Assembly (NCBI RefSeq): GCF_000003815.2
Contig: NC_049986.1
Span: 15,339,569 to 15,403,568, forward strand
Length of the DNA stretch: 64,000 bases
DNA from: Branchiostoma floridae
Taxonomy: Eukaryota > Chordata > Leptocardii > Amphioxiformes > Branchiostomatidae
Direction of reading: 5' to 3'
Shown here: positions 25,017 through 60,300 of the stretch, piece by piece
Layout: each line of letters starts with the position of its first letter
Numbering within the stretch: the stretch's first letter is position 1
Position numbers and translations under genes: made by a program
Notes under the pieces: generated by a model
Told to the model about the DNA's origin: nothing
The model's database searches: none
The model's input: only the letters and a program-made list of their open reading frames with translations

Positions 25017-25094
25017 ATTCACAGTCCGGCGTTTTCAGGGCTTGGGCGATTTCAGATTTTTCCTGGCGCTGAACTGAAATAGCCGTGCTTCAAT

Positions 25095-25631
25095 ATGGTC
25101 GACAGGACGAAACTCTATGTCGGTGGGCTGGATTTCAGGATGACTGAAGACGATGTGTACACGGCCTTCAGCGACCACGGACAGATCGTCGACTGCAAGC
25201 TCATCACAGACAGGGAAACGGGGAAGTCGCGTGGGTTCGCCTTCGTCACGTTTTCCGATGAAGACAGCGCTGCCCGCGCCGAGAAGGCTTTGGATCAGAC
25301 GGAACTCGGGACGCGGGTAATCAACGTCAGCGTGGCCAAGCCCCAGGGCGAGCGGAGAGGAGGAGGCGGTGGAGGAGGCTACAGAGGCCGAGGTGGAGGC
25401 GGCTACGGCGGTGGAGGAGGCTACAGAGGCCGAGGTGGAGGCGGCTACGGCGGTAGCTATGGCGGCGGCGGTGGCTATGGCGGCGGCGGCGGCGGTTATG
25501 GCGGCGGCGGCGGCAGCTATGGCGGGGGTGGCTATGGAGGTGGTTCGTACGGAGGCGGTGGTGGCAGCTACGGCGGTGGCGGAAACTACAGCCAACAGCA
25601 GCAGTACGACCAAGGCTACGGCGGTTACTAG
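25095..25631 (+). CDS. Glycine-rich RNA-binding protein with one RRM (CIRBP/GRP-like), intronless, 178 aa
   Basis: A single RRM fills residues 5-83. RNP2 is LYVGGL (7-12) and RNP1 is KSRGFAFV (44-51), with the aromatic residues that stack on RNA bases in place. From about residue 87 the chain is a Gly/Tyr/Arg tract with two RGRGGGGYGG-type repeats, ending QQQQYDQGYGGY. This is the layout of cold-inducible and heterogeneous nuclear RNA-binding proteins, which bind pre-mRNA or mRNA and can phase-separate through the Gly/Tyr tail. The length matches CIRBP and RBM3, but the RRM is not close enough to choose a single orthologue, so no symbol is given. The gene has no intron, whereas all the other genes here have eight or more exons. 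GC content is much higher than in the flanks. Confidence 0.93.
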   Translation: MVDRTKLYVGGLDFRMTEDDVYTAFSDHGQIVDCKLITDRETGKSRGFAFVTFSDEDSAARAEKALDQTELGTRVINVSVAKPQGERRGGGGGGGYRGRGGGGYGGGGGYRGRGGGGYGGSYGGGGGYGGGGGGYGGGGGSYGGGGYGGGSYGGGGGSYGGGGNYSQQQQYDQGYGGY

Positions 25632-40500: not shown

Positions 40501-43500
40501 AAGCTCCTTGGTGATGTCTTTAGCTCTCACCACTCCTGACTTGCTCACTGACCTGGTGATCACACAAAATGATTCTTATATCTTATATAACTTTTACCAT
40601 AATGTGTTTCAAAGCATGTCAAGCAGCTTTGGAACTGACAGTAGATGACAACATTTAAGTACTCTATAAGATTTTTAATTTAACAGTAGCAAGACTTTGA
40701 CAAGCTTTAGCTGATATTTACTAAAATCCATGAGATTTTTCATATGGCAAGTGCAAAGTTGACAAGCTTTGGCCGATATTCACTAAAATGATTTATGTGG
40801 AACCAAAAGGGGGAAACGAATGATAATTATTATAGTCTTTGGTTTATAGCTTGTGAATGTGAATTATAACATGATAACTATAGAACTGTGCCATAAAACT
40901 GACCTGGAAAAAACACCTACCAGATACTGCCATCTCACTACTGATCCATTGGAAAGTCATGTATCAGGGTGTTTAAAAGAAAGGTATTGTCATGGGGCAT
41001 TGTCTAGTGACAATGAGATAAAACAAGTAATTCATAAGAACTGAAATTTCAGGAAATTTTGATGCAGCCCAAACTGTCCAAGAAGACCACTTTTAAAGAT
41101 GAAATCTGATAAACATAGAATACAACACGGTGTATTCCGTATCACCCGAGGTACCAGCTCGACTGCGGGAAGGATCGCCCAAAGGCCGGAGGGTGATCTG
41201 ACCCGCGGGAGGGCTGGGACCGAGTGGTCACAATGGCCAGGTGGTCCTTTTGTAGAGGTGGTCACTTGTACAGGTTTGACTTTATTTAGCAGCATAACTG
41301 AATGGTTGAAATTTTTGTCCATCCCAACTGCTAGCAGTAAAATTTGCTCCAGAGACAAAAGAAACGACACTCGCCCTGCGTAATATCACCCTTTGTTCTT
41401 ACACTCCTATGTTCCCATACCCCAATGTTACGACACCCCCTAACCCTAACCCTAACCCTAACCCTAACCCTAACCCTAACCTTAACCCTAACATGCATAC
41501 ATTATGTGTGTCACTCAAATATAGGTGTCTGAACATAGCCCTGCCATAGAAAGCCCTGTCACTCAACTAGTAGACTTAACCCTTACCCTGCCTGGGGCGT
41601 GGTCCTGTGGCGCCGCCTGTGTGGGCTGAATGGTTGAAATTTTTGTCCAAATTCCCAACTGCTGCAGTAAAATTTGCTCTAGAGACAAAAGAAACAACAC
41701 TCGCCCTGTGTAATATAACCTTTTGTTCTTACACTCCTAATCCTATGTTCCCATACTCCAATGTTACGACACGCCCTAACCCTAACCCTAACCCTAACCC
41801 TAACCCTAACCCTAACCCTAACCCTAACCGGTGTCTGAGCATAGCACTGCCATAGAGAGCCCTGTTACTCAACTACGTAGTAGACTTAACCCTCACCCTG
41901 CCTGGGGCGTGGTCCTGTGGCGCCGCCTGTGAGGGCGCGGGAACCAGATGTACTCCAGGAAGCTGCCGCCCAGCAGGTTGTTCACGGCCTTGCTTCTGTC
42001 GGTGAGGTCTACAACTTCATGCACTTCCACCTGTGGGAGGTCAGATCAAGAAGGCAATCAGAGACGGCAGACTCCACTCAATGGTAAAATTTTGTCCGTC
42101 ATCTTTATTTCGAAATACTTTGAAAAAGGACATGTTTAAAACACGAATGTAAGAATCACTTTCTATGATGAAATGTGAAATGAAGAAACAGACAGACAAG
42201 CCCCCCCAAATTCTTCACTCCCTTGGGGTTTAGTTAGTATCTTCAAGGTCACTGGATTGACTAATTTAGTGCTTTGGATATCCACTATTTTGTCAATAAA
42301 GATGTGTGCAGGAAATGTAGCACTGAATATTGATAGCCACCGACAAAAGGTCGCTAGAAATGATTTTTTGTCTCAAATGGGTGACGTCATGATATTCTAT
42401 ATCAACGTTACAACTGAATGGCTTTTTACGAGGCTTCTCAAATCAAAATTTTGAAAAATAAGTCTCTAAAGAGAGCCTGTTAATCTTCTAACTTTTCTTG
42501 GTTCTGGTTGAAAACACTTCCCAACTCCACCAACCTTCTGTGCAGGTCTGACTGGGATGGAAGTTGAAGTGTTTCTGGATGTTGCGCCCTCTGCTGACTT
42601 GCGGAGGAACTGCGCAGAGCTCATCATGGGGCTGACGTGGGGACCCATGTACCCGCTCCAGTTCTTCCCGCTGCCATGGTAACAAGGTCAGAAGGTCAAC
42701 ATGTGTCACAGACGTACTTCTATCATATCTTACTACTAGATCAGGTCTACATTTCAAGGGAGTAAGTAATACTTTGATATCTGTACCTTCATGGAAAAAT
42801 CTCACATTCCTCAATACTAGTATGTAGCATTAGATCACCCAAAGGCTAAAACATTTTACTAGTACTACATTATAGTACACTGTAGTTTATTTTCCTTGAC
42901 CCATAGTCAGCAAAATGTGCAGGTGTAGATAGAAACTCAGACTATCCAAGTGCAAGTTCTCTCTATAGATTAAGAAAAACTTTGACTAAGTTAAACCTGG
43001 TCCACAATGCTTTTTTCTACTTGAATCACTTGTGCTTTCAGTAAAATGATAACGTTACACCCTCATGACACTGACCTTGGGCGTTGTCGCTGTGGAGACA
43101 TCGCCCCTGACAGCGACCCAGCGACCAGCCTGTCTGCCAGTGGCTGTCCCGTGTCCAGGTTAAACTGGTCCCGCTTGTCGAAGCCGTAGTCGCCAAGCAG
43201 GTTTACCACATTCTGTGTGGGCAGGCTGCCTGGAGAGTGGGAAACATATTCAAGGTCAAATCAGGCTTCACCTCCTTATGCAATGCTGCATTAATGTGTA
43301 ATTATAGTTTAAATGGCTGGCCAGCCAAGAAAGGGACATGAATGGAGATCCGGACAATTCAGCCCTTTACCAACTTGACCCTGTCAACTAGGCCCAACAC
43401 CCTGTCAACTCCGCCAGGGTTAGGGTGTTGGTCCGAGATGACCTAAGGGTGTTGGACGAAGTTGGTCTGATTAGACAGCCATGAGCAAAGTTGTTATTAA

Positions 43501-46036: not shown

Positions 46037-49000
46037 ATGCTGCTGCAGCAACTTGTTCTGCTGATCGGTATTCTCGCCGTCCATCCTTTGGCTGCATCTG
46101 TGAGCGTATCTGGTGAGTACTTGACTGTCGTGACTTGATCAGAAGTTGTTAACTGTTTTAGAAGTCTTTGTACTAAATGACGGACGCCGATCCCATAAGG
46201 TGGTCCGGACTGACTGTTTGGATCTGTGATATAAATTATTATGTTTTATGAGGTTGGATGTTTCAAGTTATGTTGTAGGAGGAGAGAGTTTTAAGCTGTC
46301 TGGTATTACCGAACTTTCCGTATTTTCACATAGAAATTAGCAAAATATGTCGCACTGTTTTGCATTGTGCCCTTGATGATAGCATATATAATGGCCTAGA
46401 AGTTGATGATAGCAAGAAATAGTAGTACATGTAATAGAACAAATATGTACTTCGTATTACTACGTTATACATACAAAGTGTATTTAGATAAGTGTGTGAA
46501 GGTGATCTGAAATTGAAAGAGCTTGCTCATGCAAAACAAGAAAAACAAATTCAAGCACAACTAAAACAATGAGTTGTTCATGTCGTTACTTGAGAGTGGT
46601 GCATTGTCTTGTTACGTCGTGATTTAGCACTCATTTGCCAAGACTCACATTATCACAATATTGTTTGAATAGTGGCATTTGTATGTTTACTGTGAATTTG
46701 TTACAGACATATGATGCACGAGTGAGGGTAGCAAGTTGTTCAGATCTGTTAGAATAGACGAACAGTATGGATAATTGTTTGTAACGTATATGTAATTGTG
46801 CATGATCAGCAGTAATTTTACACACCCACGGAAATCTGTAATGATAAAAATACGTAGATGTTAAATAAAATTATTGTTTTGTCCATAGCGACTGCATCTC
46901 CACAATCGATATCGGCCGTTCAGACTGCATCAGCAAGTCTTCAACCGAGTCCATCCCAAACACCTAATGGTCTCGCCTCCCAGGCCCCTCATCTTGACAG
47001 CACTGCAGCGATGTCCCTCGGAACATCTGCTCCAGTTATGACGCCGCCCCTCGGCACATCAGGTCCAGTTGTGACGCCGTCCCTCGACATATCAGCCCCA
47101 GTTGTGACGCCGTCCCTCGTCACATCTGCTTCAGTTGTGGCTCCGTCCCTCGGCACATCTAATCCAATTGTGGCACAGTCCCTCGGTACATCGGCTCCAG
47201 TTATGACGCCGTCCCTCGGCACATCGGCTCCAGTTGTGACGCCATCCCTCGGCACATCGGCTCCAGTTGTGACGCCGTCCCTCGGTACATCTGCTGCAGT
47301 TATGTCCCTCGGCGCATCGGCTCCAGTTGTGACACCGTCCCTCGGCACATCGGCTCCAGTTGTGACGCCGTCCCTCGGCACATTGGCTCCAATTATGTCC
47401 CTCGGTGCATCGGCTCCAGTTGTGACGACGTCCCTCGGTACATCGGCTCCGGTTGTGTCCCTCGGTACATCAGCTCCAGTTGTTGCCCCGTCCCTCAGTA
47501 CATCAGCTCCAGTTGTTGCCCCGTCCCTCGGTACATCAGCTCCAGTTGTTGCCCCGTCCCTCGGCACATCTGCTCCGATTGTGGCTACGTCCCTCGGTAC
47601 ATCTACTCCAGTTGTGGCGCCTTCCCTCGGCACATTGGGTCCAGCCATGACACCATCCCTTGGTATATCGAGCGCCACCATCGTGCCATACCTCAGCACA
47701 CTATCGCCGACTCGTGGTATTTCACCATCCTTGAGTACCCAGGGCCACGTACCCTCTCCCAGGCCGTCTTTACTTGCCATTACACCTTCCCCCGGCATAA
47801 TGACCTCGATAATTACGCCTGTCATGGGTACACAAACCCCAGTCATCGCAAACTCCCTCGGTACACCGACTCCAACCGTCACACCTTCACTGAGGACATC
47901 GGAACCACTTGCCAGACCGTCCTCTAGCACTGCTACACAGGCGCCTTCCATCACCTCGTCCTTGGAAGCTTTTAGGTCAGCCGGTTTCTCGACCGCATCG
48001 GCGACACACAGTACACCACAGCTGAACACCGTGCGACTCAACACCTCTCAGATGACAGTGATGCAGACAAGTACGGTGCTCATATCTCCCTCTGTGGCGA
48101 GATCAATGTCATCAGTGACAGCAACCGTGACCGCAAACACAACAGCTCCGACATCACCACCTCGTCAGGTACCAGGTAAGACCACCTTTTAGAACACCCT
48201 TTCCATCGTCATTGCGGCATGCCCTAACAAGACAAGTTTCATGTTTTGTTGCCGCTTGAGGCACTGTCTGTATGAACTTTCGCAATGTCTTTTTTTTTTC
48301 ATTCTAACGCCCTAGCTGAATAGGCTATTGTTCTGTAGTACATGTCTGGTGCTTGGTAAAACTTATTTGTATCTTCAGAGCAAAGTTCTAAGCAAACGTT
48401 TTACAATTTTACTGAAGAGTATTTCTTTCTCCGTCTACCCCTCTACAGTTCTCCAGGCACAGTCGTTTGACGTCATTTCGCGGAGCAGTGACGTGTTCAG
48501 TCCGGTAGAGGGCACTACAGTCGTTTTCAACTACATCATACGGAACACTGGCCCCGTGGACCTCCCTCCCAGCCGCGGCGGGACTCTGCAAATAAAGGTA
48601 GTCATGTTTTATTTTGCTTGTTTGTTTTGAAAACCATAACGGGTAAACCTTAATTTGTACGAGGTCGAATGACCGAGTGGCTACGCTGCAGGAGCGGAAG
48701 TTTGTACCTGACTTCGGTTGGGGAAGTAAAAGGCTAGTTGTGGAAAGAGATGGACTGGCCCCATCTCCCAATACCGTACCATGGATGACCCGCTGGCTGG
48801 GCCGCTGCTGCCTCAAAATTACCGTTAACGGGTAATCCACCCTATGTCGGCTCCACTGTTGATGTGTTGTCAAAAATGTCACTATTTATTATACATTTAG
48901 TATTGTACTTCCAACAGCAAGTTGACATGTAGGAATTCTAGTTTTGATACCAGGTATTTGAATCTAGAACTCAAAGCGCAATGTGTTATTTTCTTCCACA

Positions 49001-52000
49001 GGTGTACCTAACTGACAGTGCACAGTTTGACGCCGCCACGCTCGTGTCTAAACCCACAGACGCCACCGTGAGTCCCCTGCACACCGTCCTGATCAGGCAC
49101 GGCTTAAAGACGGGCGATGTTGTTGAACTGTCCGACTTGTCAGCCAAAGTGTCTGTTCCCGGGGCTAACTGCAGTTCCTATACCCACCTCTGTGTGGCGC
49201 TTGAGATACACGGGACGGCAGTGAATCAGACCACGACTGGGGTCTGCAAACCGCTGGGGAGTGGACAAGGCGGAGTTGGGGCACAGGATTGTAGTAAAGG
49301 TACTAGAAGTCTTTTATTGTAGTAAAGGTACTAGAAGTCTTTCTTTTTCCAATATGAGGATCTTAAGTTGCATAAATGTTTGCGTAAAAATGGGACCCCA
49401 TCGTCATCATTAATTCACAAATCTGACTAGCGACCGTTTTGCAAAGGACAAGCATAAAAGTTAACGTCGTTATCTATTCCTTCGCAGTGTTAGGGACGTG
49501 CAGCGTCACATGCGACGCCAATGCGAACTGCATCAGGGCAGACGACGGTAAAGCGAGCTGCGCATGTGCATCAGGGTATACCGGGGATGGCACAGTCTGC
49601 TGGGGTGAGTATCCGACTTTGAAATTCTAGACGAGAATTAGAGGGAATTATGCATATTTCTTACTTAGCATGAAAGCTCATCTGTGTGGGTAAAACCCAC
49701 CTCGGAGTCCCAACTTTCGTTCAACACAAGCAAATTGCTTACCTCGAATTTTCGAGGTAACTGATTTGCTTATGTAGAATGAAAGTTACAAACTCCAATA
49801 CACATTTCTTGCTCATTTGTTACTACAGAAGACTTAAACAATAAATATACAAAGCACTGTCATCAAACGGCAAGCAAGCTATACAAAAAAAAGATTGAGG
49901 AAATTACATATGGATATTAATCTATCACTCTAATATTCACTCAAAGATCTTCCTTTGCTCCCGGTATCCCAAACTACAGACGAAGACGAGTGCAGGAGCG
50001 CTCCTTGCGCCGATGTCTCGAACTCCAGGTGCGTGAACACTGTCGGGTCGTACCATTGCGCGTGCGTGCCGGGGTACGTCAAGACTGGTGGGGCGTGCAG
50101 AGCCGTGATGTCGTTCCAAGCAGACGTGCGGTTCTTCGCCTACAACTACACAGACGCCTACTCGAACAGGAGCTCCGCGGAGTATAGGCAGTTAGCAGAT
50201 ATCTACTTAACAGAGGTATGGCTTTGTTCAGTGCATTTTATGATATTTAACGAGTAGCTTCGTTATGAACCACAGTTCCATATAAAGCAAATTTCAAGCT
50301 TGTAACTCCTACAGGGAAAACTATTCTGACCTCACAGATTGAGAGACCTCTACTTTCTGAGAGTTGTCTACTTAACGTGTTTGACGTGTACATACTAGCA
50401 TAGAGTGTAGAGAAAATGTACGGTAAGCTTTTTTGTCGTGATATTCGTGACTACATATATCGTTATTAACGTTAGTAGCTGATGTGATAACCCAATATCT
50501 ATATATACGCAGATGACAAGCCTGTACCTAGCCAGCCCCCTAGCGACTGTCTTCCGAAGTGTGGAAGTTCTGGGATTCCGGAAAGGCAGTGTGATCGGCA
50601 CCCATGCAGTGAATGTGGCAGAGGGTAGCGGACAGACGGCAAGTGCCGTCAGCACAACCCTGCAGAACGCCATCCAGTCGGCAGGGGGCACCACTCTACA
50701 GATGTCTTCAGAGGTTACAGTCACAGGTAAGCGAAAAATAATAAAAAAATAGAATGTTACTTGCCTTGGTAATCACACCCTCGACGTCAACCAAAGAAAA
50801 AGAAACTTGCCATAAAATCTTAAACGCCAGTAGAGCCCACACGGCCTTATGTCAGCATTCAAAACCATTTTTCGTGATAGAATTCTATAGCATAGTCTAT
50901 AGCAAATAATGCCGATCTGTAGTATGAAAAGTATCGTGTGAAATGCCAATCCGTAGCATGAAAAGCATAGACTTAATTTTCTTCAAATCAATCCGGTTGA
51001 AAAGAAGGACTGAAATGCGGTATGCTGTTACTAGGTGCCCGAAAACTGTAACATTTTCCGACATGTATTTGCACAGATTATGACGAATGCGGCCCTGACA
51101 GTAACGAACCATTACTAGGTGCCTGGAGACTATAAAAGTTTTCCGATATGTGTTTTTTTCACAGATTATGACAAGTGCACAAGCTCGGACAGTAATGAAC
51201 ATTTTCCGATTTTTTTTCACAGATTATGACGAGTGTGCGAGCCCGGACAGTCACGACTGCAGCCCTGACGCCAGGTGTGAGAACCAGGTGGGCGGGTTCA
51301 CCTGCGTGTGTCGCACGGGCTACCAGGACAGGTCACCTCAGGACAGGCCGGGAAGGAAATGCTACAGTCAGTAATATCTCTTCTCTATATGACCGAATTT
51401 ATTTCGGAGGAAGAAATAGGGAGTAAGAAAACAAGCGGTAAAGAAATTACAGACAAGAAGAGTGCAATGTTGCCGAGAATTAAACTGGTTTGAATAACTA
51501 TGGCGGGAATACAGAAATGTCTTTCATTCTTTATAAAATCTTTTAATTCTTTAATTCTGTATAAACATTTATTGTATACAGAAATAGAAGAAGCTTACTC
51601 ACCTAGATATTTCATTTCCAGACTCAACCCTTGTTGCCGGGGTTACCTTAGGGCTGGTGGCTCTAGCGCTACTTATCATCGTCCTGGCTGTCTGCTGTTG
51701 TCGGAAGAGGAAGAAAGCTGAGGTAATTATAGCGTCACAACTTTTACACTTTTCCCCAAACTCCAACAACCATCGTTTGATGTAGCAACAATTTGCCGTA
51801 AGGTCGTGTTGATTTGATCATACAGATGACATCCTCTGGAACTACCCACCCCCCAACTGATGCAAGCGTGTGAATAAAGAAATGGCTTTAAAAGTTGCCT
51901 TCATTATGAAATTCAAATGGTCAGGAAGGTTGAACAGATGACAATTAGAAATAGTTGAAAATAGATGTGTGGGAGAATGTTATCCATATACTCAAATCAT

Positions 52001-54063
52001 CATGGCCTAACTATAGAATAAGTAGAATTGTACACTGCACTGCGTTTCAAAGTAGATGCCCTATGTTTGACACTTGCTGCTTATCACTTTTGGGAAGTCG
52101 TTTTTTCTGCGTTTCACACAGTTCACCAACATAACATCACTGCATGTGTGTTATTTGTTGTTCAGCCTGTTGGAGTAGGAGACCTTGTTTGGGGGAAACA
52201 GAGCGTGCGGGCGTTCTGGTGGCCAGGCGAGGTGGTGCCGGGAAGGAACGGGAACTCGCTCTGGGTCCGCTGGTTCGGACTCAACACCTTCTCTCCGGTG
52301 AGTTTTGCGTGATGAAAGGAACGCACATTGTGTCATAAAAATTTCATAGCGGTTGTAGGGTTACCAAGAAGTACTAGTAATTCATCTTACAATACTGGGT
52401 TACGAACCTCAAACGGATTTGTACGTAAAATGTTTGCCAGTAATATTTGTATCTGCCCAGTACATCGTAATAAGCAAACGGGTTAAATTTTCGTAACATC
52501 AGTCATGTTTTTGTCAGCTTGCGTTTATCATTTTTTGTCTTATCTGCTGATTGATTATCACCCTTTGACCCTTTCCTTCAAGATCACAATTGAGATATGC
52601 TTGATTTATTGTCAAATATGTCAAGACCTTATTGCACTGCACTCAACCGCTTCCTATGTACAGTCGTATACTTTAACATGGCGTAGACATTACTATATCC
52701 TTCACATTTTATGTTTTTTTACCAGGTCAGCGAACTAAAAGTTCAGAAGTTCCAGTCGCTGGAGCAACACTACGACTCAGAAGCTAACGAGACAATGCAG
52801 TCCTACCGCGAGGGTTTGAACAGAATTATGGAGGTACGTCAAAAACTTTTCCTCGTTCACTCCATAGTAGTTTGGCCTTGGTACTCAACGCCATCCACAC
52901 ATAACGGTAACGACGTAAAGGGAGCAAAACCTGTTCCTAGTGCTGAATACCATCTACATATAGGCGTATAGGCCTTTTACATAAAGTGAATACCAACCAC
53001 ATATAGTATGGTAAGATGCACTGTCCTTGGTGCTGAACGCCATCCGCACACATGAGTAACAACATTAAGGCAACAAGACCTGTTCTTAGTGCTGAATACC
53101 ACCCACATATTGGCATACAGGCCTGTACCTTGTGTTGAAGTTGAGTTGAACACCGACCACATCCAGTACATTAAGTTGCCCTGTCCTTGGTGCTGAACAT
53201 CATTCGCTGACGGCATACAAGGGAACAATACACAGACGTTTTTTCTAGTTCTGAACGCTGTACGTACATACTAGTAGTAGTATTGGAAGGCCCTGTCCTT
53301 GGTACTGAACATCGGCCATACGGGTGAACAGACCTAAGCGTTACTAAGTGTGAGTTTTGAAAATGAAAAATGATGTTGTCTTCTATGAAATATACTTCAA
53401 ATCTTCTGCATGCTTCATTACAGAAAAAGAATTCACAGCGAAGGGACATGTACGAAATGATATCGGGCAATGAGGTAAGTGCTTTAAGGGAAATTGTGTC
53501 GTTGGGATTAAGAAAAATTTAAGACGTCTACATTGTTATTCTGTCTGTAAAGTTTTCGCATGAATAGCAAATTAGAACACAACCGTTTTAATCACTTATA
53601 AACGTAATTCTCCTTTTGCCCAGTTTGTTCCGTTGTATGCAGAAACCGTTTTGGACGACACCGCACCTCCAGACGAAAATGCGTACCAAGACGTCATCAA
53701 TGAATATCAGCGGGTAAGTAATAAAGAATATTTTTCGAAGTCACATTACCCGGTATGTATGCCACAGCAATTAAGAACTGCTCTAACAGATGTTCGGAGG
53801 GAGGAGCAACTATGTTCAAGATTTTTTTTATCTAAACATAGCCACTGACATCGTTACCTCAGATTAATTCTTTTGACATAGGGTGCAATATAGTATCTGG
53901 CCGTGTGCAATTGAATGTTTAAATGATGAATTTTTTTCATTTAAAGCTGATGTTACCCCCTTCTTCGGGACCAATGGACGAGTCCACTGCTGAGGCGCAT
54001 GCTTACACCAACGGTGCCATCCTTCTGGACGAGGGCCCATACCGAGAAATGGAAGTTAGATGA
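46037..54063 (+). CDS. Type I membrane protein: mucin-like repeats, EGF, SEA, transmembrane helix and cytoplasmic PWWP domain, 1039 aa
   Basis: Exons: 46037-46112, 46889-48175, 48449-48597, 49002-49299, 49488-49604, 49980-50215, 50513-50726, 51223-51366, 51622-51722, 52166-52297, 52726-52833, 53424-53474, 53624-53713, 53947-54063; all GT/AG, in phase, 3120 bases. Domains: signal peptide 1-22, Thr/Ser/Pro repeats to about 454, a beta-rich segment 455-600, EGF 604-642, calcium-binding-type EGF (DEDECRSAPC) from 643, SEA to about 792 with FRKGSVIG, EGF 793-840, transmembrane helix 844-866, RKRKK, PWWP 877-954, and a tail with YQRL, YTNG and YREM. The extracellular part resembles membrane mucins; the PWWP resembles DNMT3. 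I know of no family with this combination. The main doubt is whether exons 1-9 and 10-14 form a single transcript; phase 0 on both sides of that junction allows it. Confidence 0.75.
46889..48175 (+). repeat. Mucin-like exon with 33-bp (11-residue) tandem repeats
   Basis: Exon 2 of the membrane protein is a single 429-codon exon made of Ser, Thr, Pro, Ala and Val. From about 47010 to 47690 the unit LGTSAPVVTPS recurs about twenty times, with occasional 8-residue short units (MSLGASAPVV). It is dense in potential O-glycosylation sites. The repeat also keeps the opposite strand open for 351 codons, a by-product of its codon pattern. Confidence 0.85.
48661..48830 (+). mobile_element. SINE, family D, partial copy
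   Basis: It shares GTACCTGACTTCGGT and GGGGAAGTAAAAG with 61371-61545, and GGATGGACT-type and CTGCCTCAAAA words with 55146-55495. The head GACCGAGTGGCTACGC is tRNA-like. It lies in the intron after exon 3 of the membrane protein. Confidence 0.45.
49289..49344 (+). repeat. 28-bp tandem duplication that copies a splice donor
   Basis: ATTGTAGTAAAGGTACTAGA followed by AGTCTTT occurs twice, head to tail. The first copy holds the exon 4 end AAAG|gtacta at 49299; the second holds an identical donor at 49327. Only the first keeps the reading frame with exon 5. Confidence 0.8.
49667..49753 (+). repeat. Dispersed repeat, family C, copy 2
   Basis: It matches 39618-39705 at both ends. Here the second half extends into a palindrome, CCTCGAATTTTCGAGG, with further mirror pairing outward (AAGCAAATTGCTTA against TGATTTGCTTATG). 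It may be the centre of a foldback element. Confidence 0.5.
50513..50726 (+). other. SEA domain exon with predicted self-cleavage motif
   Basis: The SEA fold runs from about 50100 in exon 6 through this exon. The codons at about 50576-50599 read FRKGSVIG, close to the FRPGSVVV of MUC1, in which the chain breaks between Gly and Ser. The equivalent bond here is Gly746-Ser747. Family knowledge says such domains stay together non-covalently and can release the ectodomain under strain. Confidence 0.7.
51035..51222 (+). pseudogene. Two decayed partial copies of the third EGF exon
   Basis: Before the functional exon at 51223 the block AACATTTTCCGA, pyrimidine tract, CAG, ATTATGACGA(A/G)TG(C/T) occurs twice more (exon-like starts at 51077 and 51166). 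Each copy has the acceptor and the first 30-36 exon bases (DYDEC-type start), then reads into intron. No donor follows. These are tandem duplications of an intron end plus exon start. Confidence 0.7.
51622..51722 (+). other. Transmembrane exon with polybasic juxtamembrane stretch
   Basis: It encodes NSTLVAGVTLGLVALALL, then IIVLAVCCCRKRKKAE. The helix covers about residues 844-866. Three cysteines at the inner edge could be palmitoylated, and RKRKK is both a stop-transfer signal and a candidate nuclear-import motif. If the following intron were retained, the frame would close after 21 more codons at about 51786, giving a short-tailed form. Confidence 0.85.
52166..52833 (+). other. PWWP domain exons of the membrane protein
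   Basis: Exons 52166-52297 and 52726-52833 encode GVGDLVWGKQSVRAFWWPGE, then a loop, LWVRWFGLNTFSPVSELKVQ and a helix ending YREGLNRIME. This follows the DNMT3 PWWP pattern: GDLVWGK, WWP, WVxWFG, FSxVS, then a helical bundle with YR. The motif's central tryptophans (892, 893) and Trp910 are present. PWWP domains read methylated H3K36 together with DNA. Confidence 0.85.
52871..53320 (+). repeat. Degenerate intronic minisatellite, units about 47-65 bp
   Basis: Words of the form CCTTGGTGCTGAACGCCATC or GTTCTTAGTGCTGAATACCA recur about eight times (near 52875, 52930, 53026, 53081, 53130, 53182, 53247, 53297), often followed by CACATA. It fills the intron between exons 11 and 12 of the membrane protein. 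Confidence 0.6.
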
Positions 54064-57382: not shown

Positions 57383-60300
57383 ATGATGGCGTTTAATAAG
57401 TTTATCTTGTTCTGTCTGGAAATCGTCTGTCTCCTTGTGGACTCATTGAATACAGCATCATCTGAGAGGTAAGCTGTCATGTTCATCATATGTACATTTA
57501 GGACGTTAACTTTGATTACCGATGCTGCGATAGCGTACTACTTGGGAATATGGCCAGTTAGAACATTTTCATTTCTGGCTCTATTCAAGAAAAAACACGA
57601 CGTTACTTAGCATACGTTAATATGCCTGCTTTCCTGCCAGATGATAATATAAAACGAGGACGAGTTGGGTGTTTGAAACGTTCATTGCTGTTTCGTTTCT
57701 ATTCTTTTTTCTAAACTTGTGCACTTTTGTTGTAGCTGTTTCATGAGAGGTATACAACATTGCAGTGGTGTTGTCCATAGCTTGTTTTAATGTTTGGTGA
57801 GGATAAGCTAAAAAAAAAAACTTTGGTTGATCATATCTCCCATGTTTCATAACGTTTCGTGATCATCATCAACATCATCAGTCACTGCATTCTGTATCTA
57901 CAGTCTTTCGTGATCAACTCTATCGTATTATGCACCTAGTGCAGCTAGGATGCAGGGAAATGTTGCTACTTTATTTTTGCGACCCATTCCCAAAAGCAGG
58001 GTTGGTTACAATGAAATTGAGTTTGGGTATTACAGGAAATCTTTTGTAAAATACTCAGTGTAAAATTGCGACCTGACTCTTTCGTAACATAGCAACAAAA
58101 TAGGGGTAGGGAATCTCCCGAGCAGCCCTCGTAACCCCTGCTTCGCCTATTGGGTCAGTTAGTTCTCACTCATAGTGAGCAATTGGGCTGGTCTCAATCA
58201 TGATGTTTCTGACCTAGGGCGAAGAGTTGCTGTTACAGTTCCAATCATGTAACCCGTAACCTTGAGTGGCCTTCAGGCCTTGTTACGTGGTGACCATTGA
58301 GTAAAACAAAAAAAAAAAAACTCAACTGTGTGATAAACAGGCCTTGATAGATTTCTATAATCACATGCTAACATTATGAATGCCGTGCCATTGCCATGTT
58401 CCTTAGATAAAGTTCTAGCTGCAATAATCAATGATGTAGAAATTTTCTCACTGTAACCCTGTTAAGTAAATCCTCCTTCGTTTGTATAGTATTACCCGTA
58501 ATCATGAGATTGAAATATAATGAATCCTACAAAATACATCTCTACTGTTAAAAACAAGAGTGCAAAAATAGCACACCTGTCCCTTGAAGTTGTCCACTTT
58601 AGGAGCCAACAGAACTAAGTATAAACAACTGTGCGTGCCAGTGAGAGGGTCCAGAACACGTGCCATTTGCGTGGTGTGGACAGACATCATGCATATTCGG
58701 TGTACAGTGTTGAAATATATGGCCATTTGCTGCCATGTATAACTCTTCTGACAGCAAGTTTTAGCAAAAAAAGCATCCTTTCTGATATATCATTATCATC
58801 ATTTACTTAGTATTCGGCATTACCTAAAACTGTATTCATTTGTATGTGAAAGTTTGCAGTTTGTTCTCCTGGAGTTGTAGGGTAAATGAGGTCAGCAGTA
58901 TTCGGTACATCCAGACGTAAGTCGCAGGTTCGTAACATTTAGATGTTAGTGCAGAATATCACATCTTATAGCGATGTAAATTTCTTCTGCCGCCGCCATA
59001 TTGGTGGAGCTGAAGGAACCAAGATGGCGACCAATAATTTAGAACGTTACGTGGCCTTAAACGTTCGTTTTTCTTTACACAGTCAGATGAATCTGCCGAG
59101 TTTCTGCGAGAAGGAGTGCCCGCCGTTTGAAACCCTGTGCTCTACTGGAGACTACGAGGTTCGGCGCTACGCCAGCTCCATGTGGGTCTCAACTACCGAG
59201 CACAGCGACTCGTTCTCTTTCGGCCAGCTTCGGGCAGCCGAGAGACTGGTCAACTACATAGAGGGAGAAAACAGCAAAGGTATAATGGGTATTTAGTTTT
59301 AGTGTATGTTTGTGCGCGCATGTGTGTGCTAGGAAGATCTCTGTTTTTGTCTAGTGCGTGCGTGTTTGGCGTGTATGTGTGTGTGCGTGCTGACTAAAAA
59401 AAACTCATAATCTTAAGCCGTTTGATTGTTGGCAGGTATGAAGATGCCTCTGACGGTACCGTTTGTGACGCAGCTGAGCATGTCGGGAGATGCGGTTACC
59501 GTGGCTACCCTGGTGCCCAAGAACCTCCATGCAGACCCTCCGACCCCTCAGCATCCTAAGGTGCACTTTTCTTTAAGTGTAAGCTTTTCACTGAGACTAG
59601 GATGCATGTGCGGCGACAGGAATTCTAGGTAATATGTCAAAGGTAAAGGCCCACAAAAAGAAAACAAAACCCGTCTGGACGTTGTTACACAAATCGAACA
59701 ATGGCCGACATAAGGACTGTTTACCTTTGACGTATTACCTAGAATTCCTGTCAGCGCATATGTGTTCTGATCTCTGTGAAAGGGCTTTCAGTGTATGTAC
59801 AGCCATGTGAATTAGTTCTTTCAATGGTTTTTGCCACATATGTTACCGTGGCCCGAAATTTGACTTCAATATACCATTACGTAACATGCCTCCTTTTACC
59901 TCTGCATGTCAAGAAAGAAGAAGACCTTCGAACACATGTCGACAGGTCACCATCTTTGATCTTAATAGGTTTCGGTGTTACGCTTTTAATCTGTAATCAA
60001 AAAGGCAAATCTCGTTAATTGAAGTCCTCGTCGCCTCGTCAGTAATTCATTGACGTATTGTATTCAACTTACGATGACGTATTTATCTATACTTTATTTC
60101 AGGCACTAACGGGCCCATAGCACGAGCAAACTGTACAATAACGTTATAAACAACAGATACATTAGAGATGTACATAGTTTTTGTGGGTTTTTTTTTTGCA
60201 CAGGTGGTACTTGACGTTCTACCGGAGACAGTCCTGTATGTCCGTCCCTTCTCTGGGTACACCACGCGCAGCCTGGTGAAATCCCAGGCACAGAAACTCT

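Follow-up and report, generated by a model that had tools for sequence, protein, structure and literature searches.

EGF modules placed around a SEA domain are the layout of the membrane mucins MUC3, MUC12, MUC17 and MUC13, and the SEA self-cleavage motif consists of G-S followed by hydrophobic residues. From Notch and from MUC1 an intracellular fragment is released. Not every PWWP domain possesses an aspartate at the position of DNMT3B residue D266. According to PMC9578598 (in excerpt), SEA-type membrane mucins are heterodimers produced by cleavage and emerged in vertebrates. The PWWP domain of DNMT3B holds methylated lysine in a cage formed by F236, W239 and W263, and DNMT3 PWWP domains have a positive DNA-binding surface (PMC6316889, in excerpt); D266 counts as another key residue, and for S270 a bond to the histone backbone has been proposed (PMC7615734, in excerpt). 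Obligatory extracellular and nuclear domains are held not to co-occur in one protein, and their presence in a single model is an error sign for MisPred (PMC2542381, in excerpt). Lancelet gene models are said to be often wrong and lancelet domain combinations have been attributed to prediction errors (PMC4967905, in excerpt); lancelets have also been described as showing very high exon shuffling (PMC4284660, in excerpt).

The 64-kb stretch of Branchiostoma floridae DNA analyzed here (the window) belongs to contig C8 (25.6 Mb) of an assembly of 513 Mb in 431 contigs. Fourteen exons at 46037-54063, rebuilt by script, join into a single reading frame of 1039 residues with no inner stop. All 13 introns have GT-AG borders and the phases are consistent down to the stop codon at 54061-54063. 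The 14 phase-consistent exons of the original prediction had been placed correctly. The encoded protein shows, in this order, a signal peptide, Ser/Thr/Pro-rich repeats, a region without Pfam match, two EGF modules, a SEA domain, a third EGF module, a transmembrane helix, a PWWP domain and a tyrosine-bearing tail. The exons are the following:

46037-46112, + strand: exon 1, signal peptide; ATG, hydrophobic N-terminus, donor GTGAGT, phase 0 to 1
46889-48175, + strand: exon 2, Ser/Thr/Pro-rich mucin-like repeats in one exon of 1287 bases
48449-48597, + strand: exon 3, first part of an extracellular region of about 150 residues without Pfam match, with relatives elsewhere in the genome
49002-49299, + strand: exon 4, second part of the same region, also with relatives elsewhere in the genome
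49488-49604, + strand: exon 5, EGF module 1 (gene model and Pfam)
49980-50215, + strand: exon 6, EGF module 2 and first part of SEA (gene model and Pfam)
50513-50726, + strand: exon 7, second part of SEA with the FRKGSVIG motif at residues 743-750 (Pfam SEA at 687-780, 1.2e-8)
51223-51366, + strand: exon 8, EGF module 3 (Pfam EGF_CA at residues 793-833)
51622-51722, + strand: exon 9, transmembrane helix by hydropathy and basic RKRKK; phase 1 to 0
52166-52297, + strand: exon 10, PWWP exon a (beta part), matching DNMT3B; phase 0-0; Pfam PWWP at residues 879-954 across exons 10 and 11
52726-52833, + strand: exon 11, PWWP exon b; 108 bases, phase 0-0, of equal length at all four loci described below
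53424-53474, + strand: exon 12, tail with DMYEMI (gene model)
53624-53713, + strand: exon 13, tail with three tyrosines (gene model)
53947-54063, + strand: exon 14, end of the tail with YTNG and YREM, and stop codon (gene model)

Elsewhere in the window the telomere-like repeat CCCTAA forms two interstitial arrays (41438-41492 and 41774-41829), and there are a glycine-rich protein with an RNA recognition motif (25083-25628, + strand; RRM_1, 1.7e-21) and an open frame similar to the beginning of the SOUL heme-binding family (58943-59293, + strand; 4.5e-13).

When the whole protein was compared with Pfam, EGF_CA was found in three stretches (1.9e-14), SEA scored 35.5 bits against a cut-off of 26.4 (1.2e-8) and PWWP scored 26.4 bits against a cut-off of 25.6 (1e-5), rising to 29.0 bits (1.6e-6) with the tail alone. 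Hydropathy revealed a hydrophobic N-terminal stretch and a single strong transmembrane segment at residues 844-867, with a mean of 3.05 across the 19 residues from residue 848. These results agree with the signal peptide, repeat region, three EGF modules, SEA domain and transmembrane helix that had been read from the sequence beforehand, and the Pfam and DNMT3B profile matches bear out a DNMT3-like PWWP; it lies, with the tyrosine-bearing tail after it, on what is predicted to be the cytoplasmic side. Among the 15 Pfam families matched at E<=10 there was neither an ADD nor a methyltransferase domain.

In its extracellular part the protein resembles the SEA-type membrane mucins MUC3, MUC12, MUC17 and MUC13, having a signal peptide, a large Ser/Thr/Pro exon (exon 2), a SEA domain with flanking EGF modules, one transmembrane helix and a cytoplasmic tail; the signal peptide, Ser/Thr/Pro region, SEA domain and single helix that define such mucins are all there. 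Residues 26-454 contain 19% S, 15% T and 14% P, and much of this region is coded by a 33-base tandem repeat of 19.7 copies (47013-47644). A PDB search with the SEA region gave one weak match only, to the transmembrane protease chain 2e7v, a SEA domain (E 0.16). In intron 7, at 51072-51215, two broken copies of the start of EGF exon 8 were noticed (CACAGATTATGAC at 51072 and 51160, the genuine one being at 51218). The protein differs from the known mucins in the PWWP of its tail and in the extra region placed before the EGF modules. This region (exons 3-4, 48449-49299) had no Pfam match at E<=1; relatives of its approximately 150 residues occur on C17, C6, C2 and C1 of the same genome, and it may represent a domain of lancelet surface proteins not described so far. 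The C-terminus also departs from the MUC3 cluster, as the protein ends in REMEVR and lacks the class I PDZ motif described for that cluster (PMC9578598, in excerpt). Since SEA mucins have been described, in the excerpted text of the same source, as emerging in vertebrates, the gene is noteworthy even apart from its PWWP.

Because a protein mixing extracellular and nuclear domains is a listed sign of fusion error, the tail was searched against the lancelet's own genome. The best matches were at C17:2.90 Mb (63% over the first PWWP exon), C2:13.1 Mb (41%) and C8:18.5 Mb (C8b, 44%), followed by the DNMT3 gene. In all three flanks an EGF module, a SEA-type exon, another EGF module and a transmembrane exon lie upstream of two PWWP exons, in the order seen in the window. 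The SEA domain was confirmed by Pfam in the window and at C17 (5.6e-11) only; for C2 there is a weak tblastn match (E 0.057), and the C8b domain was identified by eye through its FRSGS motif. The corresponding motifs read FRKGSVIG (window), FRSGSVIG (C17), FRNGSLYG (C2) and FRSGSLIA (C8b), and the common FRxGS[VL] appears to come near the motif at which SEA mucins cleave themselves. A SEA search of the genome returned 91 places. PWWP queries from the window, C8b and C2 each recovered the four loci again, and in all three lists DNMT3 was the next PWWP gene; there are at least four such loci, as the searches score the best candidates only. The PF00855 cut-off of 25.6 bits was passed at three of them (29.0 for the window tail, 28.5 at C2 and 32.2 at C8b), C17 remaining below it with 19.3. 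When the Pfam PWWP model was run exon by exon over the genome, the four loci were not among the matches at E<=0.001, in keeping with their modest scores. A further tail match at C8:21641302 was rejected as a fifth gene because it duplicates, without splicing, part of intron 11 together with exon 12, whose donor is missing; the duplicated segment, C8:21640997-21641362, is 77% identical to its source. Matches on C6 (E 7.8) and C208 (E 9.4) and to a PWWP gene on C4 (E 2.05) were set aside as weak or ordinary.

At all four loci phase 0 is found on both sides of the junction, at the GT donor that ends the transmembrane exon and after the AG that precedes PWWP exon a. The intron between them measures 443 bases in the window (exons 9-10), 397 at C17, 2387 at C2 and 1114 at C8b. 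One could read the arrangement as a membrane-mucin gene and a neighboring PWWP gene that were joined on paper only and duplicated as a pair, given that lancelet gene models are error-prone (PMC4967905, in excerpt) and that MisPred counts such a combination as an error (PMC2542381, in excerpt). The pair would have had to keep an identical phase-0 junction at every locus, and introns of 443 and 397 bases would need room for the end of one gene as well as the promoter and coding first exon of the next. Besides, three of the four loci have no in-frame ATG before PWWP exon a: in the window, exon 10 is open for 48 codons upstream without one, and the first in-frame ATG of the PWWP is codon 68 of 80, in exon b. 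C8b does have an in-frame ATG within the 8 codons open before its exon a, a point in favor of separate genes. As the junction has the same phase at four loci, a division into exons 1-9 and exons 10-14 was judged unlikely, and the paired-gene account is to be regarded as very improbable. A design common to several genes of one genome is unlikely to be a gene-model error, and the EGF/SEA/transmembrane/PWWP chain is almost certainly one gene.

A different doubt concerns whether the PWWP belongs to the main product. It could be a relic or a minor splice product, the main protein lacking it through exon skipping or through read-through of exon 9. Exons 10 to 13 are all of phase 0-0 and could be skipped in frame, and read-through of exon 9 leads after 20 codons to a stop at 51783-51785, with an AATAAA at 51873. 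However, the + strand of the window contains 32 copies of AATAAA, so that one inside an intron is unsurprising, and dN between the loci is below dS. We consider it unlikely that the PWWP has such a marginal status, although the stop and AATAAA of 51783-51878, signals that are common by chance, could yield an isoform without it.

The PWWP is very probably of DNMT3-type origin. A profile of the four domains matched the PDB chains of DNMT3B (1.4e-13) and DNMT3A (8e-13) best, followed by PWWP2B (5e-6), with all others above 0.1. In the lancelet's own DNMT3 gene (C2:25.57 Mb, identified by Pfam ADD_DNMT3, 1.4e-19) the PWWP likewise lies on two exons, of phases 0-0 and 0-0, and the inner intron takes the same position, after F-S-I in DNMT3 and after F-S-P or Y-S-K in the mucin family. 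PWWP exon b has 108 bases at the four loci and 111 in DNMT3, or 105 with a second acceptor located six bases on. Seven other PWWP places were considered, four of which could be compared by eye (L002, L003, L005 and L006; L001, L007 and L008 were not readable), and in these the intron junction differs in place or phase or is lacking. The mucin PWWP differs from that of DNMT3A and DNMT3B in following a transmembrane helix, in a loop one residue longer before WWP, in a shorter inter-strand loop and in a changed D266 position.

The simplest account of these likenesses would be that a symmetric two-exon PWWP cassette was captured from a DNMT3 gene and then duplicated. Identity between the PWWP domains is 51% for the window and C17, 49% for C2 and C8b, 27-34% between these pairs and 29-37% between each copy and DNMT3. 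As the two halves of the family are no more alike than each is to DNMT3, they could stem from two separate captures; the longer loop and the lost aspartate common to all four copies bear against this. The window and C17 show a dN of 0.41 and a dS of 1.52, C2 and C8b a dN of 0.54 and a dS of 1.23. In ten of ten comparisons dN was below dS, with dS near saturation and not finite in two; given such dS values and only about 80 residues, a tree would hardly prove a single capture or the exact donor.

We compared the methyl-lysine pocket of the four copies with that of DNMT3B, the matching of residues being our own. None of the four loci has lost W239, W263 or the S270-type serine. The D266 position is occupied by L in the window, I at C17 and S at both C2 and C8b, and in every copy the F236 loop that precedes WWP has one residue more than its DNMT3 counterpart. 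MAFFT placed R (window, C17 and C8b) or K (C2) at the F236 position; HMMER agreed on R for C8b but set F on F for the window copy, the longer loop making this match ambiguous. None of the four thus presents the complete DNMT3B-type set of F236, W239, W263 and D266. The net charge of the domain is -0.9 in the window (pI 5.8), +1.9 at C17, +6.8 at C2 and +1.9 at C8b, compared with +0.9 in DNMT3, a span that reveals no kind of partner common to the copies. No PWWP match came from a structure covering half of the PWWP domain. All copies retain one half of the pocket while the other half is altered, which would point to a different ligand more than to decay; with the tryptophans and the serine conserved at the four loci and one alignment setting F on F, binding of methyl-lysine may still take place.

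These data bear on the proposal of the original prediction that the protein could carry a surface signal to H3K36-methylated chromatin. Opening of the SEA domain, mechanical or proteolytic, together with intramembrane cleavage would free the PWWP tail, which would enter the nucleus, bind methylated nucleosomes and change transcription without a second messenger. There is a likeness to Notch and MUC1 in the SEA-like cleavage motif outside and the possible signaling tail inside; unlike in them, intramembrane cleavage and nuclear entry are putative in the lancelet protein. A cleavable-looking SEA domain, the basic RKRKK beside the membrane in the window copy, and the two cage tryptophans and S270-type serine of all four copies would fit such a route. 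The altered F236 loop and the replaced D266 speak against it at every locus, as does the restriction of RKRKK to the window copy, the other three having looser basic residues such as KKQR and GRRK. The window PWWP is, in addition, slightly acidic, as opposed to the positive surface of DNMT3 (PMC6316889, in excerpt). SEA cleavage by itself would leave the fragment bound to the membrane unless an intramembrane protease acts. Taken with both its parts, release and transcriptional effect, the chromatin route is improbable, and the evidence favors a milder form in which the PWWP is a membrane-side receptor module. To our knowledge, no PWWP has been found in such a role before.

We prefer, with some confidence, to see in this gene a SEA-type membrane mucin with a two-exon DNMT3 PWWP cassette as its cytosolic binding module. 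This explanation builds on what can be read in the DNA, namely the open spliced frame, the domains, the junction that recurs at four loci, the similarity to DNMT3 and the intron position in common with it. A SEA-type mucin ancestral to at least four Branchiostoma genes would have gained the cassette from a DNMT3 gene. The SEA domain would cleave itself after FRxG, and the glycosylated outer subunit would stay bound to the membrane stub. Just inside the membrane, in the cytosol, the PWWP would meet a partner other than H3K36me3 nucleosomes. Six tyrosines follow the PWWP in the window tail, including those of YTNG and YREM, which resemble docking sites for Grb2 and PI3K p85, and once phosphorylated the tail tyrosines may recruit SH2 adaptors; the tails at C17, C2 and C8b, compared by eye, differ from this one. 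The PWWP would then serve a mucin-type surface sensor as adaptor or scaffold, and its most likely role is that of a binding module in the cytosolic part of a mucin-type receptor.

In the main text of the open-access papers searched, no report was found of a PWWP with SEA and EGF-like domains, of a PWWP with a transmembrane mucin, or of a PWWP with transmembrane, EGF and amphioxus. The PWWP goes unmentioned in the excerpts of PMC6071037, PMC4967905, PMC4284660 and PMC2542381, and a database entry with the mucin/SEA/PWWP architecture may well exist. Given its recurrence at four loci, the shared exon phases, the traceable donor family and the signs of coding constraint, the lancelet family looks like a real exception to the rule that separates extracellular from nuclear domains. 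It represents a well-marked case of exon shuffling by a 0-0 cassette, not of the favored 1-1 class, and offers a clean test of whether a chromatin reader moved to the membrane keeps its ligand or gains another.
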